This document shows, in pieces, positions 1,986 through 8,783 of a stretch of 64,000 bases of DNA; within the stretch, counting starts at the first letter, position 1, and the number at the start of each line of letters is the position of its first letter. The stretch lies in NCBI GenBank assembly GCA_947470805.1, contig CANIVU010000034.1, positions 1 to 64,000 of the forward strand, given 5' to 3'. The notes beneath the pieces were generated by a model. It was not told where the DNA came from. It made no database searches and worked only from the letters and a program-made list of their open reading frames with translations. Both the position numbers and the translations under genes were made by a program. This DNA is from Acidobacteriota bacterium (GTDB lineage: Bacteria; Acidobacteriota; Terriglobia; Bryobacterales; Bryobacteraceae).

Positions 1986-2264
1986 TTACTGGACGACGTC
2001 TTCCACTGGGGGAGGGGGCAGTGGGCCAAACTGCAGTCCGACCACATCTTCCACGGGAGGAGGAGGCAGCGGGCCGAACTGGAAGTTCACCACATCTTCC
2101 ACGGGCGGAGGAGGTAGCGGACCGAATTGGAGGTTCACCACATCTTCCACAGGGGGAGGAGGCAGCGGGCCGAAAGTGGCGTTGCGCGCAAAAGATACAC
2201 TGGAAACTCCCAGCAGCGACAACGCAAAAAGACCGATACGAACAACTTGGTTGAGGTTTTTCAT
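1986..2264 (-). CDS. Small secreted peptide with four 16-residue Pro-rich repeats
   Basis: A 92-residue precursor. Residues 1-26 look like a signal peptide (charged MKNLNQVVR start, hydrophobic core GLFALSLLGVSSVS, cleavage near SFA/RN). The mature part is almost entirely four copies of FGPLPPPPVEDVV joined by NLQ, NFQ or GLQ, a strict 16-residue period. The four 48-bp DNA units differ mostly at silent third positions in the proline, valine and glutamate codons while the peptide unit is unchanged, which suggests selection on the peptide. The start at 2264 has AAGGTG seven bases upstream; a longer in-frame start at 2285 is unlikely. The gene is followed by the hairpin and the seven-helix protein gene. 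Family not recognised; a multi-copy secreted peptide precursor or a short adhesive/structural repeat protein are both possible. Confidence 0.75.
   Translation of the reverse strand: MKNLNQVVRIGLFALSLLGVSSVSFARNATFGPLPPPPVEDVVNLQFGPLPPPPVEDVVNFQFGPLPPPPVEDVVGLQFGPLPPPPVEDVVQ
1993..2178 (-). repeat. Four 48-bp coding tandem repeats
   Basis: Units at 1993-2040, 2041-2088, 2089-2136 and 2137 to about 2178, each encoding one 16-residue repeat of the secreted peptide. Divergence between units is mainly synonymous. Confidence 0.9.
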
Positions 2265-2298
2265 TAGAACACCTTCGCCTGACAAGCTTACGGCAGAC

Positions 2299-2558: not shown

Positions 2559-3449
2559 TTAGTCGCCGCGGTCGGTGTAGGACGTATGTTCGAGCGGCAT
2601 ATCGTATTCGCGGCGCGGCGCGCGCGAACGGCGGCCAGCCCATTCCAAGCGCATATCGTTGCTGACTTCCTCAAGCGTGTCCATCGTGACCTGATGTTGC
2701 TCAGCGGCGAAGGCGGTGAGCATACAGTTGTCACAGATCCCATTGATCAGGCGGGGAATTCCTTGTGAACGTCTATGAATTTCAGAAAGAACTGCCGGAG
2801 TGAAAACATTCTGGTTTTCCATGCCGGCGCGGGCCATGCGGGTATCGATGTATTCAATCATTTCCGCTTCGCTGAACGGCTTCAGGTTGTAGCGGAGAAC
2901 GATACGCTGTTTCAACTGCCGCAGATTTGGTGCGTCGAGTTTGCGATCGAGTTCCGGTTGGCCGGCGAGGACGATCTGCAGGAGTTTCCCTCGGCGATTC
3001 TCCAGGTTTCCCAGGAGGCGAATTTCCTCGAGGACGTCCCAATCCAGGTTATGGGCTTCGTCGACGATCAGAACGCTGGTGCGGCCTTCGTTGGCCTGCT
3101 GGATCAACAGGTTGTTCAGCGCGAAGAGGACTTCGGTCTTCGACGTACGGTCGCAGCGCAGATCGAGATCATAGGCGATCATCTCAAAGAACTGCTGCGG
3201 ATTGATCCGGCTATTGAAGAGCGAGGCGTATTCGATGTACTGCGATTCCAGATACTCACGCATGCATTCGAGCATCGTGGTCTTGCCAGTGCCGACTTCC
3301 CCGGTCAGAACAATAAACCCTTTACGACTTTGAACGCCATAAATCAGATTCGCGAGAGCCTCTTCGTGCTGCGGGCTGCGATAGAGGAACGTCGGATCTG
3401 GACTGAGACTGAAGGGGTTTTCTGAGATGCCGAAGAAGGCGTTGTACAT
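2559..3449 (-). CDS. ExeA-like AAA ATPase
   Basis: A 296-residue cytosolic P-loop ATPase of the ExeA/GspA type, which in other bacteria helps assemble secretins or acts next to exopolysaccharide machinery. The N-terminus MYNAFFGISENPF is characteristic (Y..FFG...PF). Walker A is GEVGTGKT at residues 50-57 and Walker B VLIVDEAH at 126-133. There is no C-terminal peptidoglycan-binding extension, so this is the short form. It starts 135 bases after the csm5 stop on the same strand and has its own terminator; the intergenic gap suggests its own promoter rather than membership of the csm operon. No secretin or exosortase gene is visible nearby. Confidence 0.85.
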   Translation of the reverse strand: MYNAFFGISENPFSLSPDPTFLYRSPQHEEALANLIYGVQSRKGFIVLTGEVGTGKTTMLECMREYLESQYIEYASLFNSRINPQQFFEMIAYDLDLRCDRTSKTEVLFALNNLLIQQANEGRTSVLIVDEAHNLDWDVLEEIRLLGNLENRRGKLLQIVLAGQPELDRKLDAPNLRQLKQRIVLRYNLKPFSEAEMIEYIDTRMARAGMENQNVFTPAVLSEIHRRSQGIPRLINGICDNCMLTAFAAEQHQVTMDTLEEVSNDMRLEWAGRRSRAPRREYDMPLEHTSYTDRGD

Positions 3450-3584: not shown

Positions 3585-4616
3585 CTAATCCCAATCCAGC
3601 TTTACCCATCCGCAAAGCGCCGCTCCGCCGCCCCCATCGATGGCAATTCGCCTGGTCTTGGGGAAGGGAAGGCCGGGCACGACCGATTTCCGAATGCCCG
3701 GCATGCCGCTAAGCGCCATCCGAGCTTCCGGCGTTCCGAGTTCCGGCGCCAGCGTTTTAGACCGGAATCCGGCGCCCCAGCCAACGGGAAACATGCAGGA
3801 ATCGCCCGAGAGTTTCGACTCCTCGTCCCGCAGCTTCTCCACTGTTTCGATGAGCGGTTTGAGCGCGGCGTGTTTGGCGTAGGCCGCCTGGTCGCCAATC
3901 CACCGGCGTGCCTGGACGCGTAGCGCTTCGGTGACGCCGGGCGGCAAAGCCCCGCGCCCTTCGAACACCGCGCCGGGCCGTGCCATTTCAGCGAACTGCT
4001 GTCCCGGTTTCCATTCGGAGGGTCCGGTCTTGCCCTCGTTCCGCAGAACGAGAACGCGAGTCTGGTAGACGCGGAAGGAGTCGGCCGGCGTGCGGGCATC
4101 AGTAAAGGCCAGTCCATCCAAGGCCCGGCGGCCGCCAGCGGCGTCGAGCGCCGACAAGGTCTTCCAACGCAGGCCCTCGGCGGCGCAATCGATCCACAAC
4201 TGCCGCGCTTTTTCCGGGTCGATCGCCCCGCCCAGCCAGGCCGTGCGGAACGCGCCCTTGATGGCGCTGCCGGGCAGGAGCCGCCGGCCGCCGCCGTGGG
4301 CGAAGCGCGGAATGTGCAGATCTTCCGTACGCGCCTTCTCCCAGATCGTCGCCAATCCACCGGAGGCAAACGGGATCTTCGCCGAGCTATAGCCCTGCGC
4401 GTAGCCACCCCACTGGGACCACTCCAGCCGTTCGGCTTTCCGCAGTTGATCCAGATAGCTTTCCAGCCGGGGATTGCGGGCGAGCAGTTTGAAGATGCGT
4501 TCCTGGTCGAGCACGCGCACTTCGTTCTGCCACACCATGTAGTCAATGGGCGTCAGCAGTTCACCGGAACCGGCAAGCATCGGGGACAAAACAGTCAGGC
4601 GGTAGCGGCGGTTCAT
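3585..4616 (-). CDS. csm5: Type III-A CRISPR RAMP protein Csm5
   Basis: A 343-residue Cas7-group RAMP subunit that caps the crRNA 3' side of the Csm complex. It opens with the RRM-like strand MNRRYRLTVLSPMLAGSGE, carries PGSAIKGAFR at 115-124 (Csm5 PGSSIKGAIRT-type motif), VGWGAGFRSKT at 278-288 and PFPKTRR at 317-323, and ends GWVKLDWD, all in the usual Csm5 order. The ATG at 4616 overlaps the csm4 stop as ATGA, implying translational coupling; a longer in-frame start at 4637 lies within csm4 and is unlikely. Last gene of the operon. In known systems Csm5 also recruits crRNA-trimming nucleases; no such nuclease is encoded here. Confidence 0.9.
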   Translation of the reverse strand: MNRRYRLTVLSPMLAGSGELLTPIDYMVWQNEVRVLDQERIFKLLARNPRLESYLDQLRKAERLEWSQWGGYAQGYSSAKIPFASGGLATIWEKARTEDLHIPRFAHGGGRRLLPGSAIKGAFRTAWLGGAIDPEKARQLWIDCAAEGLRWKTLSALDAAGGRRALDGLAFTDARTPADSFRVYQTRVLVLRNEGKTGPSEWKPGQQFAEMARPGAVFEGRGALPPGVTEALRVQARRWIGDQAAYAKHAALKPLIETVEKLRDEESKLSGDSCMFPVGWGAGFRSKTLAPELGTPEARMALSGMPGIRKSVVPGLPFPKTRRIAIDGGGGAALCGWVKLDWD

Positions 4617-5608
4617 ACCTGCGCCTCCTCCGGCCACGGCAGCGCCAATCCGGCTCCATACCGCAGCACCGGGTGCGCCGCGCCATCGATGGTCGATTCG
4701 CTGATCCGCCCGGCCGGTTCGGTTTCGCTTGCGAGCACCGCTCCCTCACGAACGAATCGCAGCTCCGGTTTGGCGCCGGCGCCCGGCGTCCAGCCGGAAC
4801 GCGAGAGCGTCCGATACGCGCCGCTGTCCCAGGCCACCACGTCGGCCTCGGCGGGGGCGAACAGACCGATGGTCCACCACTTGCCACCAACGGCGGCCGC
4901 GCCTTTCCATCCGGCGTTCTGCAACAGCTTACCCAACTCCCCTTCGCGATAACGCGGACGGCGGGACCGTCCCCAACCAGCGCCGCGCCAGCCGCCGATC
5001 CCTTCGTCGGCCAGCAAGCGAAATACAGCCTTTAAGCGCTGCGACCAGACGGCCGCGGTCTCCGCATTGGCGAACACGAACAGCGCCCAGGCGCCCGAGT
5101 TGTTTCCGAACTCGATGCCTTCAGTCGATACGGCGGGCGCGCCGGTCCCGTCGAAACGGTCCACGGCGGCGCGCTGGCGCTCAATCGGGCGATAGGGGCC
5201 GCCGGCGTTGGCGCGATCGGCCGATTGCAGGCAGCCGCTGGGCAGGTCGAGCAGCCAGCGATGTTCGTCGAACTTACGCGCGGCCAAGTCTTGAATCGCC
5301 CCGAGCGGAGCAAACCGAACCGCCTCCAACCGCACACGCCGCAGTCCCGGATAGGCGCGAACGGCCTCCGGCAGCGGGGCATAATACACGTCGTTCTGCA
5401 GCGGGAGCAGCGAACTCATGCGGGTGGCCGGGGCGCCCTCGGACAACCATTCCGGCAGCCAGCCGAGCAGGCCCATGGCGTTGCTGACGGCGCCAAACAG
5501 CGAGTCGCTCGGTACCAGCGAGGCGGGCTCCTCGGAGCGGCCCGCGCCGCAGCGCCAGGGGGTGATCGGCAATAGTTGCACCAGCAGGGCTGGCCGTTCA
5601 GTCGGCAT
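4613..5608 (-). CDS. csm4: Type III-A CRISPR RAMP protein Csm4
   Basis: A 331-residue Cas5-group RAMP protein, the subunit that holds the crRNA 5' tag and contacts Cas10. The N-terminal strand (ALLVQLLPITPWRCG) leads to VPSDSLFGAV near residues 32-41, the usual Csm4 'sDtlfgAl' segment. The diagnostic glycine-rich loop GIGGWRGAGWGR is at 203-214. The start lies six bases after the csm3 stop and the stop overlaps csm5, consistent with one transcript. Nothing obviously missing compared with family length. Confidence 0.9.
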   Translation of the reverse strand: MPTERPALLVQLLPITPWRCGAGRSEEPASLVPSDSLFGAVSNAMGLLGWLPEWLSEGAPATRMSSLLPLQNDVYYAPLPEAVRAYPGLRRVRLEAVRFAPLGAIQDLAARKFDEHRWLLDLPSGCLQSADRANAGGPYRPIERQRAAVDRFDGTGAPAVSTEGIEFGNNSGAWALFVFANAETAAVWSQRLKAVFRLLADEGIGGWRGAGWGRSRRPRYREGELGKLLQNAGWKGAAAVGGKWWTIGLFAPAEADVVAWDSGAYRTLSRSGWTPGAGAKPELRFVREGAVLASETEPAGRISESTIDGAAHPVLRYGAGLALPWPEEAQV

Positions 5609-5614
5609 GGGTGG

Positions 5615-6451
5615 TTATTCGCTCAGGCGGAGCGCGAACTCGTCGGCCAGAACGGCCTGCTGCAGGGCTTCGGTATTGGCCGCCTTGGCCACTTCCTCTT
5701 CCTGCGCGCCGTCGGCGTAGTAGCGCCGGCTGCGCCACACGGCGCGGATGTTCTGGAACTCCACGCGGCCGCTGCCGCGGGAGCCGCCGCCACCGAGCGC
5801 GGCGTCTTCCATCAGGCGAAGACCCTGCACCACCAGCGGCACCAGCTTCTGGTCGCCGTCCTGCAGAATGTCGATGACGATGCGCACCTTGAACCGGGCG
5901 CCGGCCGGCACGCGTTCGAGCGTGCGCGGATTGGCCTGCGCGGTGATGCGGTCGATGGCGTTTTCGCTCTTCACCTCGGTCAACTCGTCGTCGAGCTGTT
6001 CGCGCATCTGCGCGGTGATCGATTCGACCTCGAGCGGCGCGTCGTAGATCGCCAGACGGGCCGGGGTGATGTGGCGGCCTTCCACGGCGTCGCCCTTCAC
6101 GCGCTCCATACGGCCCGGGTTGCGGCCGAAGAGCAGGCAGATGGGATCGTCGTTGCGGTCGCTCTGATGAATGCGCACTTCCTGGCCGCGGCGGCGCGAG
6201 AGGTACACCATCTCGTCGGGCGCGGTGAGGCCAAGGGCGTGTTCCAACAGGCTGCGCAGGCGGCCGCGGAGCGAAGAGCCGGGCACGATGGGCCGGCCGA
6301 AGGCGTCTTTGACAACCGGGTTGTCGGCGCCGCCGATTTCAAGCGAGCCTTTGCCGGCGCCAATGTGGAGGCCGGTGAGGCAGACGAGCGAAGCGTCGAT
6401 GACCAGCTTGCCGGCGAGGCGGATTTCGGGGACTTGGGAAGAAGAGCTCAT
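5615..6451 (-). CDS. csm3: Type III-A CRISPR RAMP backbone and target-RNA slicer Csm3
   Basis: A 278-residue Cas7-type backbone subunit. In characterised Csm complexes repeated Csm3 copies cleave the bound target RNA at 6-nt intervals with a single essential Asp in the thumb-facing loop. Here that loop reads GGADNPVVKD with Asp43 in the equivalent position, so slicing is probably retained. Other hallmarks: TGLHIGAG (26-33), PGSSLRGRLR (57-66), ENAIDRITAQANPRTLER (163-180), and the C-terminal glycine loop LGGGGSRGSGRVEF (219-232). The ATG at 6451 follows AGGAAAA; the in-frame extension to 6691 would run into csm2 and reads as nonsense. It sits 22 bases after csm2 and 6 before csm4. Confidence 0.93.
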   Translation of the reverse strand: MSSSSQVPEIRLAGKLVIDASLVCLTGLHIGAGKGSLEIGGADNPVVKDAFGRPIVPGSSLRGRLRSLLEHALGLTAPDEMVYLSRRRGQEVRIHQSDRNDDPICLLFGRNPGRMERVKGDAVEGRHITPARLAIYDAPLEVESITAQMREQLDDELTEVKSENAIDRITAQANPRTLERVPAGARFKVRIVIDILQDGDQKLVPLVVQGLRLMEDAALGGGGSRGSGRVEFQNIRAVWRSRRYYADGAQEEEVAKAANTEALQQAVLADEFALRLSE

Positions 6452-6473: not shown

Positions 6474-7337
6474 TTATTCGTTGTACGCGATGATGGCTTC
6501 GAACAGGTCGCGGAACCGATCGTAGCCTCGGGTTTCATTGCGCCGGGTGACTTGGAGCAGCAGCTTTTCGAGCGGGTCGAGCGAGCGCAGACCGTGGCGG
6601 GCGATGGTATAGGCCAGCCGGGCGCGCAGCATGACGAACTGGTGCTGGCGGTCGGCTTCCACAGCGCGGCAGGCGCGGCGGACGGCGCCATACAGGCGGC
6701 GCAGTTGCGACCGCGTGCCGGCGTCGAGATCCCGCAGGCGGGCCACCAGCACGTGCGCCTGGTTGTCCAGGTACAGGCTGTCGCTGATCAGCTTGTCGTA
6801 TTCGATTTCAACGGGGCCTTCGGGGCGGCGCATGTCGGGACGGCGATCGCCGCCGCCACGCTGTTCGCCACCGCGACGGTCGTTGCCACCGCGATCATTG
6901 CCGCCACGCTCGTTACCAGCACCGCCGCCGCGCTGCTCCTGCCCGCGGCGTTCGTTGCCCTTGTTCGGATTCGGTTCGCGCTGGCCGCCGCCCTGCGGTT
7001 GGGCCTGGCGTTCGCGGGGAGGCCGGTCGCCTCCGCGATTTTCGCGCGGCGGACGATCTCCACGCGGCTCGCGCGGCGGGCGATCCCCACGGGGGGCGGG
7101 AGCGGGCGGAGCGGCTGCCGGCGCGGCGTCGGCGGGTGCGGCTTCTGCCGGTGTTTCCGGCGCGGCGGGCGCTGCTTCAACGGGCGCGGCTTCCACCGGC
7201 GCCGGAGCGTCAACAGGGGCTGCTGCCTCCACCGGTGCCGGCGCTTCGGGCGCGGCGGCGGCGGGTGCCGTAGTTTCTTCAGTCACCGGCGATTCCGGGG
7301 CCGGTTGTGGAGTATCCGTCTGCAATTCTTCCGACAT
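6474..7337 (-). CDS. csm2: Csm2 small subunit with a long added Pro/Ala- and RGG-rich N-terminal tail
   Basis: A 287-residue protein whose last ~112 residues (176-287) match Csm2, the helical small subunit that lines the target-RNA channel: note MLRARLAYTIARHG (236-249) and the typical C-terminal FRDLFEAIIAYNE. Ordinary Csm2 is about 120-160 residues. Residues 8-82 are low-complexity Pro/Ala/Glu, then 83-175 are Arg/Gly-rich with three RGD(R)PPRE-type units near 83-110 and many RGG/GGG runs. The frame is continuous and the tail is in frame with the domain, so this is not a mis-joined ORF. Start chosen at MSEELQ (7337); an alternative ATG at 7376 adds 13 residues. RGG tails in other proteins bind RNA and promote condensation; that role here is inference. 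The gene lies between cas10 and csm3 in the operon. Confidence 0.88.
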   Translation of the reverse strand: MSEELQTDTPQPAPESPVTEETTAPAAAAPEAPAPVEAAAPVDAPAPVEAAPVEAAPAAPETPAEAAPADAAPAAAPPAPAPRGDRPPREPRGDRPPRENRGGDRPPRERQAQPQGGGQREPNPNKGNERRGQEQRGGGAGNERGGNDRGGNDRRGGEQRGGGDRRPDMRRPEGPVEIEYDKLISDSLYLDNQAHVLVARLRDLDAGTRSQLRRLYGAVRRACRAVEADRQHQFVMLRARLAYTIARHGLRSLDPLEKLLLQVTRRNETRGYDRFRDLFEAIIAYNE

Positions 7338-7388
7338 ACGTAGGTTCGAACTCTCTTTCCCTGATCCGGCCCTCATCGGGCCCGGGCG

Positions 7389-8783
7389 TTAATCCTGCCC
7401 GCGCCAGCCGCTTTCTAGCCGCGCCCAATCCAGCGCCACTTTCCCGGCGGGCCGCAACTGCTTCTGCACCTGCCCCCGGCCAATCAAATCTCCCAAAAAC
7501 GCGCGCCACTGCCGTTCAAATTCCGATCCGCTGCGATCTCCGGCCAAACGGCGCAGGCGGCTGTGGAAGCGCCACGGCCGGTCCACGCTGCGTTCCCGGC
7601 GGCGCGCCCGCGGCGAAGCAATGCCATCGCCCACGCCACGCACACCGTAGAAATCTTCCAACTCTTCAAACACTTCCGGCGGGCAGTGATAGACGTCGCG
7701 CAGCCGGCGGATGCGGACCTTCAACGCTTCGGCATCTTTCAATGCCGGCCAATCCAGAATGCGGTCGAACAGCGCCAGCGCATTCCGGCCGGAGGAGCGC
7801 ACGGTCTCCAACTGTTCCTGATTTCGCTTCCAGAGGCTCGCCAGCGTCTCGCCCGGTTCGGCTACGGTGAGCGCCCCGGATACCGACGTGCCTTCGGTCT
7901 GTTCCTTGCCGCCCGGCAGGTCGCCGGAGAAGAGCGTGAAGACGCGGTGGAACTCGCTCGCCACGCCCAGCAGCGCGTCCCAGGCGCCGGTGACGGCAAA
8001 GTCATGCCCGCCGCTGTAGACGATCGCCACGCGGCCGGAGTGGGCGGGCATTGCCGAAACGATGCGTTGCAACTCGCCGGCCACCAAGCCTTTATAAAGC
8101 ACAGCCAGATACTGAAAATTTTCGGCCGAATCGGCCAGATTGAGCCGAGCGGCGGCCAAATCGATCTCGCAGCGCAGCAGGCCCCAGGTGCGCCGTCCGT
8201 GTGCGGTCCGGCCGTAGTCCTGCGGGGCGGCGGGCGGGATGGTCAACGACACATCGTCGGCGCCAGGGACAGGTGCCAGCGGCACGGCCTCTCCCTGCAA
8301 TGAGAACTCAGCTGTCAGGCGTGCCGCCAAGCCTTCCCAGGGCCGCTCCACTTCAGCTGCCGCCACCGGGTTCGGGTTGAACGCCGCCGCGCCCAGATGC
8401 CCGAGCGGTGTCTGCCGTTTGCGCAGAATCCCATCGCTCAATCGTTTCCAGATATTGGGCCAGGTGCCAAGATTCTCTGTGGACGTCCAGTGCAGTTCGA
8501 GCAATCCGCCGGTCGACGCGGCGATCGAGTCACGCAGCGTCGTAAAATGGGCGTCCGCCTCGGCGATCATTGGTTCGGGAAGCAGCAGCAGGAACGACCC
8601 GCCGCCGGCGTAGCCGACCAACAGCGGCGACAGTTTGCGTTCCGCCAGGAAGCCGCGCGGAGTGACTTCGGTGAGCATGGAGACCCAGAGGCTGCGGTCG
8701 GCAAAAGACGAGTTTTCGCTCGTGCCGGACACGAACCGTTCAATTCCGCGAAACTGGGCGTAGAGGAATACTTGAAGCGACAT
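7389..8783 (-). CDS. cas10: Minimal Cas10 (Csm1-like): no HD domain, GGHD in place of GGDD
   Basis: Large subunit of a type III-A-like complex, only 464 residues against the usual ~750-850. It begins directly in Palm 1 (QFRGIERFVSG; YAGGGSFLLLLPEP at 58-71), so the N-terminal HD DNase domain is absent. The linker region normally holding a CxxC-CxxC zinc site has no cysteines; the whole protein has only Cys205 and Cys367. Palm 2 is recognisable (WGLLRCEIDLAAARL at 200-214, VAIVYSGGHDFAVTGAWD at 252-269) but the cyclase GGDD reads GGHD (258-261), and the upstream metal-binding strand has Glu206 where Asp is usual. A helical D4-like C-terminus follows. It is first in the operon. The start codon overlaps the divergent pseudouridine synthase start. 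Likely a scaffold without DNase or cyclic-oligoadenylate activity (inference). Confidence 0.88.
   Translation of the reverse strand: MSLQVFLYAQFRGIERFVSGTSENSSFADRSLWVSMLTEVTPRGFLAERKLSPLLVGYAGGGSFLLLLPEPMIAEADAHFTTLRDSIAASTGGLLELHWTSTENLGTWPNIWKRLSDGILRKRQTPLGHLGAAAFNPNPVAAAEVERPWEGLAARLTAEFSLQGEAVPLAPVPGADDVSLTIPPAAPQDYGRTAHGRRTWGLLRCEIDLAAARLNLADSAENFQYLAVLYKGLVAGELQRIVSAMPAHSGRVAIVYSGGHDFAVTGAWDALLGVASEFHRVFTLFSGDLPGGKEQTEGTSVSGALTVAEPGETLASLWKRNQEQLETVRSSGRNALALFDRILDWPALKDAEALKVRIRRLRDVYHCPPEVFEELEDFYGVRGVGDGIASPRARRRERSVDRPWRFHSRLRRLAGDRSGSEFERQWRAFLGDLIGRGQVQKQLRPAGKVALDWARLESGWRGQD

Follow-up and report, generated by a model that had tools for sequence, protein, structure and literature searches.

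CRISPR effectors are typically mobile immune genes of patchy occurrence, and types III-C, III-G, III-H and III-I are defined by subunit sets other than that of the type III-A (Csm) complex. Loss of Cas10 signalling is known in these types (PMC12669027). Csm particles of solved structure contain the small subunit Csm2 in two or three copies, and target-RNA contacts have been described for the Csm2 of T. onnurineus (both in PMC10289348). Ca. Solibacter usitatus Ellin6076 is recorded in PMC3174227 as having three cas genes and no CRISPR, the genes being read there as leftovers of a past CRISPR. Outside CRISPR biology, the Rho factor of B. thetaiotaomicron carries a disordered region whose short charged motifs control RNA-dependent condensation, with autoinhibition (PMC13269538).

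The csm operon described here (Table 1) lies in a window of 64,000 nucleotides, the whole stretch of DNA that was analysed, from a genome of the family Bryobacteraceae. It resembles type III-A in having the same five subunits, with Csm2 to Csm5 above their NCBIfam cut-offs, in the fold of Csm2, and in keeping both the Csm3 slicer aspartate and the RNA-contact residues of Csm2. It differs in its Cas10, which is shortened, lacks the HD region, falls below the Csm1 cut-off and in this family often has an altered GGDD motif; in that no adjoining array was found; in its core inheritance; and in its Csm2, which surpasses the other subunits in conservation and has an Arg-rich tail. The altered GGDD recalls the lost or inactivated Cas10 polymerase of III-C, III-G, III-H and III-I, but the subunits are those of III-A. 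No description of an Arg-tailed Csm2, or of a family-wide csm operon, was found in the open-licence PMC literature, in line with the original prediction, which knew of no described Csm2 of this kind; the tail is a new form of Csm2, the five-subunit Csm complex itself being known. At the level of sequence, the comparisons below show that the type III-A-derived Csm operon of Bryobacteraceae is an inherited core locus and that the Csm2 tail is under selection wherever it can be read.

Table 1. Features of the csm region in the 64,000-nucleotide window
Feature	Position	Strand	Remarks
small signal-peptide-like ORF	1986..2285	(-)	four GPLPPPPVEDVV repeats (48-nt units)
AAA_22/ExeA-type ATPase	2559..3449	(-)	frequent syntenic neighbour of csm5
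csm5	3585..4637	(-)	NCBIfam Csm5 53.3 bits, cut-off 38.3
csm4	4613..5608	(-)	NCBIfam Csm4 84.7 bits, cut-off 55
csm3	5615..6451	(-)	278 aa; NCBIfam Csm3 193 bits, cut-off 90
csm3 slicer aspartate D43	codon 6323-6325	(-)	GGADNPV aligns with GGTDNPV/GGIDNPV of solved Csm3
csm2	6474..7337	(-)	287 aa, start ATG at 7337; ORF calls and Pfam/NCBIfam matches
Csm2 core, residues 176-287	6477..6812	(-)	helical; fits solved Csm2; 85% mean identity between genera
csm2 tail block 2, residues 83-175	6813..7091	(-)	Arg/Gly-rich, 6 RGG, 3 RPPR, net charge +8
csm2 tail block 1, residues 1-82	7092..7337	(-)	Pro/Ala/Glu, 0 Arg, net charge -14
candidate ribosome-binding site, weak, purine-rich GAAAGAGAG	7351..7359	(-)	precedes tail start; inferred
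cas10/csm1	7389..8783	(-)	464 aa, HD region missing; Cas10 palm2 Pfam match; NCBIfam Csm1 84.9 bits, below cut-off of 170
GGHD replacing the Cas10 GGDD motif	8001..8012	(-)	aligned to GGDD of 8wfx

We fetched 80 csm loci, hand-picked among the matches listed and favouring long contigs and a spread of genera, which with the window make 81 loci from 48 genera. The gene order cas10-csm2-csm3-csm4-csm5 is constant over all 81 as far as the contigs reach: Csm2, Csm3 and Csm4 are present in every locus, Cas10 in 78 and Csm5 in 80, the absentees lying at contig ends. Around the operon, the start of cas10 overlaps by 2 nt (8782-8783) that of a divergent gene for an RluA-type pseudouridine synthase, and the ATPase beyond csm5 comes near the XrtA/PEP-CTERM ATPase model, with 293.8 bits for a cut-off of 324.5. 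Of 80 loci, 35 show matches to other genera in the DNA that directly follows csm5. A conserved RNA was considered on both sides and rejected, the cross-genus similarity beside cas10 being coding sequence of a neighbouring gene and that downstream of csm5 being the ATPase gene.

The window Csm2 joins a tail of 175 residues to a core of 112 residues in a single frame. The original prediction of such an in-frame fusion was right in its ORF and coordinates, and residue counts agree with the composition it gave, Pro/Ala/Glu to about residue 82 and then Arg/Gly-rich sequence with RGG and RPPRE; the second block (residues 83-175) contains 23 Arg in RG, RGG and RPPRE units. The Pfam Csm2 match is confined to residues 190-285, and NCBIfam model TIGR01870 scores 38.1 bits against a cut-off of 30.6. 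In the AlphaFold2 model residues 1-179 form neither helix nor strand, with pLDDT (10-residue means) of 44-62 as far as about residue 170, while the core is predicted as helices with pLDDT mainly 87-97 and has the small-subunit fold of solved Csm2 (6iqw, 6mur). The low pLDDT of the tail fits disorder, of which it is no proof. The charge-hydropathy test likewise classes block 2 as disordered; block 1 is scored as ordered by that test but given no structure by AlphaFold2. When the solved T. onnurineus Csm2 is set against window residues 169-287 (6iqw/6mur), it too has about 50 residues ahead of the common core, which means that a Csm2 extended at its N-terminus is not in itself peculiar to Bryobacteraceae.

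The csm2 frame remains open upstream of 7337 and reaches an ATG at 7376, but this upstream start is absent from most genus relatives and was ruled out; the ATG at 7337 (MSEE/MSDE) is common to them, the sequence upstream of it being mostly divergent. Across the family the start of the tail lies no more than 30 bases from the cas10 stop in 62 of 78 loci and more than 80 bases past it in three (L065, L105, L117), and no purine-rich motif precedes the chosen start in 4 of 79 loci (the window entry there being the ATG at 7376). These starts were picked as the first candidate after cas10, which alone is no proof that translation begins with the tail, and internal starts were therefore tested separately. 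Relatives beginning Csm2 near residue 175 with a ribosome-binding site of their own, which the original prediction had named as the sign of an unreal or unused fusion, did not emerge: in the stretch reaching from 12 codons ahead of the core start to 5 codons past it, 63 of 79 loci have no ATG, GTG or TTG, and among the 16 with a start codon near the core a Shine-Dalgarno-like sequence is present in one (L110, a TTG within the core). A short, internally started Csm2 as the functional form is thus extremely unlikely, even though an in-frame ATG precedes the core by seven codons in the window and in four genus relatives, and by five codons in two further relatives.

Substitution patterns point the same way. 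Of 11 pairs hand-chosen among close relatives, ten have a tail dN/dS between 0 and 0.32 and the remaining one has 0.76 (18 changes), and the core of the same pairs gives 0 to 0.08. Tail substitutions by codon position 1/2/3 number 52/62/226 over five pairs, in one of which (L035-L036) the third-position excess is absent. Judged by these patterns, purifying selection on the tail shows that it is translated. A plus-strand gene over the tail was ruled out by the third-position bias in the minus frame.

A search of homologues for N-terminal extensions, the check attached to the original prediction, found the tail throughout the family. Setting aside L100 and L102, where the contig ends within the tail, an Arg-rich Csm2 tail of 36-175 residues (median 61) is present in all 79 readable loci, from 48 genera. 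Overall the 79 tails consist of 17.6% Arg, 18.4% Gly, 15.3% Pro and 4.8% hydrophobic residues, the Arg share of individual tails ranging from 10 to 34%. Short motifs far exceed their frequency in shuffled tails: RPPR occurs 65 times (4.1 in shuffles), GDR 191 times (18.2), DRG 154 times (18.2) and RGG 110 times (46.1). Because the tails are related, this enrichment reflects shared or maintained order and not 79 independent samples. RG is found in 70 of the tails and RGG in 45. All 53 tails shorter than 100 residues are net positive, with a median of +2, and some short tails may bind RNA poorly because they are so weakly charged; all 26 longer tails have an acidic N-terminal and a basic C-terminal half. 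Long tails occupy several separate clades of the Csm2+Csm3 tree, and the acidic block was therefore probably gained more than once. Aromatic residues are few (median one per tail), and the classic RGG condensers have more of them than these tails do.

Comparison with other Csm2 proteins delimits what is particular here. The ordinary, higher-scoring Csm2 of Bryobacteraceae (n=15) carry 34-55 residues ahead of the profile match; these N-termini are often Pro/Gly-rich and average 8.5% Arg (13 of the 15 used; L015 and L019 left out), and no comparable tail was seen in Csm2 from other families of the phylum in 14 readable loci of 15 (L261 unreadable). These controls indicate that a short low-complexity N-terminus is ordinary and that what sets this Bryobacteraceae lineage apart is Arg enrichment together with lengthening. 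They also give a starting point for the proposal that GC-rich repeat slippage has expanded such a Pro/Gly-rich N-terminus into a near-neutral, low-complexity tail, a proposal that gains from the differing tail lengths of close relatives and from the one pair with a dN/dS of 0.76. It is nevertheless improbable in view of dN/dS values of at most 0.32 in the other ten pairs, the third-position bias, the single charge pattern in 79 of 79 tails and the motif counts far above shuffles.

A different function for the tail would be that of a protein-docking arm, an RPPRE-type linear motif tying the complex to, for example, a ribonuclease, RNA polymerase or the ribosome. RPPR[ED] occurs in 35 of 79 tails with its first copy at median residue 13, unusually fixed for a drifting tail, and the eight-residue RPPRExRG pattern, searched as DNA and restricted to CGN codons, has two occurrences in the 8.7 Mb window genome, both inside csm2. 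As the remaining 44 tails have no RPPR[ED], and charge and Arg content are the common property, we regard docking as an unlikely main role.

The distribution of the operon is that of an inherited gene set. The Pfam Csm2 model matches 210 of 257 genomes of the order, all in Bryobacteraceae (210 of 237 family genomes), once in 193 and twice in 17, a count of matches whatever their type, partial or weak ones (such as G050) included. A Csm2-core profile run against 399 genomes of the class gave 97 matches, again all in Bryobacteraceae, the family of the nearest named records of the csm operon, those of Candidatus Sulfopaludibacter sp. SbA3. In the Csm2+Csm3 tree 15 of the 16 genera with at least two loci are monophyletic, which fits vertical descent. 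A mobile-element origin was considered and rejected, no relative being confirmed in viral contigs. Mean identity between genera, from 150 random pairs in 47 genera, is 85% for the Csm2 core and 74% for Csm3, as against 54% for Csm5, 53% for Cas10 and 52% for Csm4. In ordinary III-A pairs, a small control of two loci of genus g48 against one of genus g18, Csm2 is 38-43%, Cas10 43-45% and Csm3 56-57% identical. On these identities constraint falls on the Csm2-Csm3 filament, the RNA-holding part, and the ends drift. Operon dN/dS is 0.03-0.20 in the pairs tested, and 0.03 to 0.18 in genus members that have neither Cas1 nor the searched array pattern (WIN-L121, L122-L124 and L122-L123).

Cas10 of these loci has a median length of 484.5 residues (n=78), compared with 831-834 in three ordinary III-A loci of Bryobacteraceae. 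Residue 11 of the window protein aligns, weakly, with residue 254 of the full-length Cas10 6xn3, from which we take the HD region to be absent; Pfam gave no HD match in the window Cas10. GGDD is kept in 52 of 78 loci and altered in 26, so that cyclic-nucleotide signalling would be optional or lost, with the motif changed in a third of loci. In both loci fetched from each of two genera, g54 (L066, L101) and g8 (L051, L056), we noted Cas10 without GGDD beside an otherwise kept operon. GGxDNPV with the slicer aspartate of Csm3 is found in 80 of 81 loci, the exception being a 170-residue fragment, and 44 sequences show no variation at R213, Y243 and R247 of the window Csm2, the positions aligned with the residues by which T. 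onnurineus Csm2 contacts target RNA. It had been suggested that the tail might compensate for the degraded Cas10; as an account of one odd protein this is not supported, since tails occur in 79 of 79 loci, including all 52 with a GGDD-bearing Cas10.

How such a complex would obtain guides bears directly on its function. Cas1 was matched in 112 of the 210 Csm2-positive genomes and undetected in 98, and the array pattern searched for turned up in 42 of the former and 7 of the latter (p = 9e-8); the hand-copied genome lists behind these co-occurrence counts have sizes of 210, 199, 129 and 52, in agreement with the tallies. Array absence is only suggestive, because the one pattern searched, found in 52 of 257 genomes, misses most array types. 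The fetched flanks of 81 csm loci contain no spaced repeat array, nor do those of 40 cas6 loci, picked among the matches listed and away from Cas1 matches; of 20 Cas1-bearing loci run through a comparable script, 13 yielded arrays. Candidate CRISPR arrays in seven csm loci (L053, L087, L095, L096, L098, L103, L108) were rejected as tandem repeats lacking unique spacers, those of L095, L096, L103 and L108, from other genera than the window's, having units of 45 or 48 nt. No guide RNA for the Csm complex was found in the flanks of the csm and cas6 loci or in an Rfam search of six csm loci, which returned no match.

A conventional explanation is immunity from split loci, in which Cas6 would process crRNAs from arrays at other sites of the genome and the tail would just help the complex to find phage RNA. 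According to PMC12669027, Cas6 apparently acts in trans in the majority of type III systems. Cas6 (PF10040) is present in 199 of 257 genomes and accompanies Csm2 in 183 of 237 family genomes, above expectation (p = 2e-4, with genome completeness uncorrected). By eye, about 20 of some 150 Cas6 places among the matches listed lie within about 10 kb of Cas1, and of nine Cas6 proteins encoded in Cas1-bearing loci four cluster with the stand-alone ones, for which reason a Cas6 dedicated to the Csm complex is unsupported. Such family-clade Cas6 were seen in the Cas1-bearing loci L311, L312 and L295, the first of them a type I locus with Cas7 (DevR), a Cas3-like helicase, Cas4, Cas1 and an array. Around the 40 cas6 loci no neighbouring gene family recurs in more than six, overlapping ORFs aside. 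With arrays in 52 of 257 genomes and Cas1 in 112 of 210, ordinary crRNAs could be supplied in trans.

Against this stand the 98 Csm2 genomes without Cas1 and their scarcity of arrays, the array-free csm and cas6 flanks, and the report of cas genes with no CRISPR in Ca. Solibacter usitatus (PMC3174227). The window genome itself has no Cas1 match and no array of the searched pattern, and its Cas6-like ORF (G000:C2:28589-29311, L284), found with a profile built from relatives, has lost the conserved His and the Gly loop. This ORF and a similarly degenerate one in a relative (L285) show a mutual dN/dS of about 0.22 despite that loss. Split-locus immunity thus appears rather unlikely, and the many genomes that keep the complex without detectable CRISPR memory genes suggest, as far as gene content goes, that its task may be other than classical CRISPR immunity. 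The three cas genes of Ca. Solibacter usitatus may be the csm operon of Bryobacteraceae; if so, the data fit maintained genes better than leftovers.

We favour, with a probability of about 0.5, a Csm-derived RNA-binding complex that is core to the family and whose tails act as a multivalent RNA-capturing brush. The five proteins would form a Csm-like ribonucleoprotein in which the Csm2-Csm3 filament, its most conserved part, holds the RNA duplex, and Csm3, with D43 kept, could cut bound target RNA; DNA cutting by Cas10 would have been lost with the HD region. The guide RNA would probably come from a Cas6-processed precursor outside the csm locus. With two or three Csm2 per particle, the number in solved Csm structures, each complex would display several tails. 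The basic block of RG, RPPR and GDR units may then serve as a flexible brush that binds RNA without sequence preference and raises its local concentration, and the multivalency of this brush could condense complexes with RNA. In long-tail lineages the acidic Pro/Ala/Glu block would compete with RNA for the basic block, tuning capture.

By analogy, Rho of B. thetaiotaomicron is the nearest tested precedent for this model of the tail. In both cases a conserved RNA-handling machine has gained a charged region with short motifs, disordered in Rho and predicted to be so here, for which we propose opposing effects on condensation like those described for Rho (PMC13269538 and PMC10284900). Rho differs in being a termination factor with KE-rich motifs and demonstrated condensation, whereas the RG-rich tail sits on a predicted Csm filament and its role is proposed from sequence.

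A broader reading is that a type III-A effector has turned into a core cellular ribonucleoprotein without CRISPR adaptation, with a Csm2-Csm3 filament, a dedicated or non-CRISPR guide, Cas10 as a cap and Arg-rich tails forming RNA condensates; we offer this tentatively, at a little under even odds. In contrast to the patchy and mobile immune genes that CRISPR effectors usually are, the csm operon of Bryobacteraceae looks inherited like a housekeeping locus, and the subunit lining its RNA channel is now the most conserved and carries an Arg-rich tail. Were the reading as a core ribonucleoprotein true, the complex would be an RNA-guided RNA regulator or an RNA-decay particle in the physiology of these bacteria. 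If exapted in this way, it would be a natural case of an RNA-guided machine serving cell physiology and would offer a direct test of what a disordered tail contributes to a defined RNA filament.
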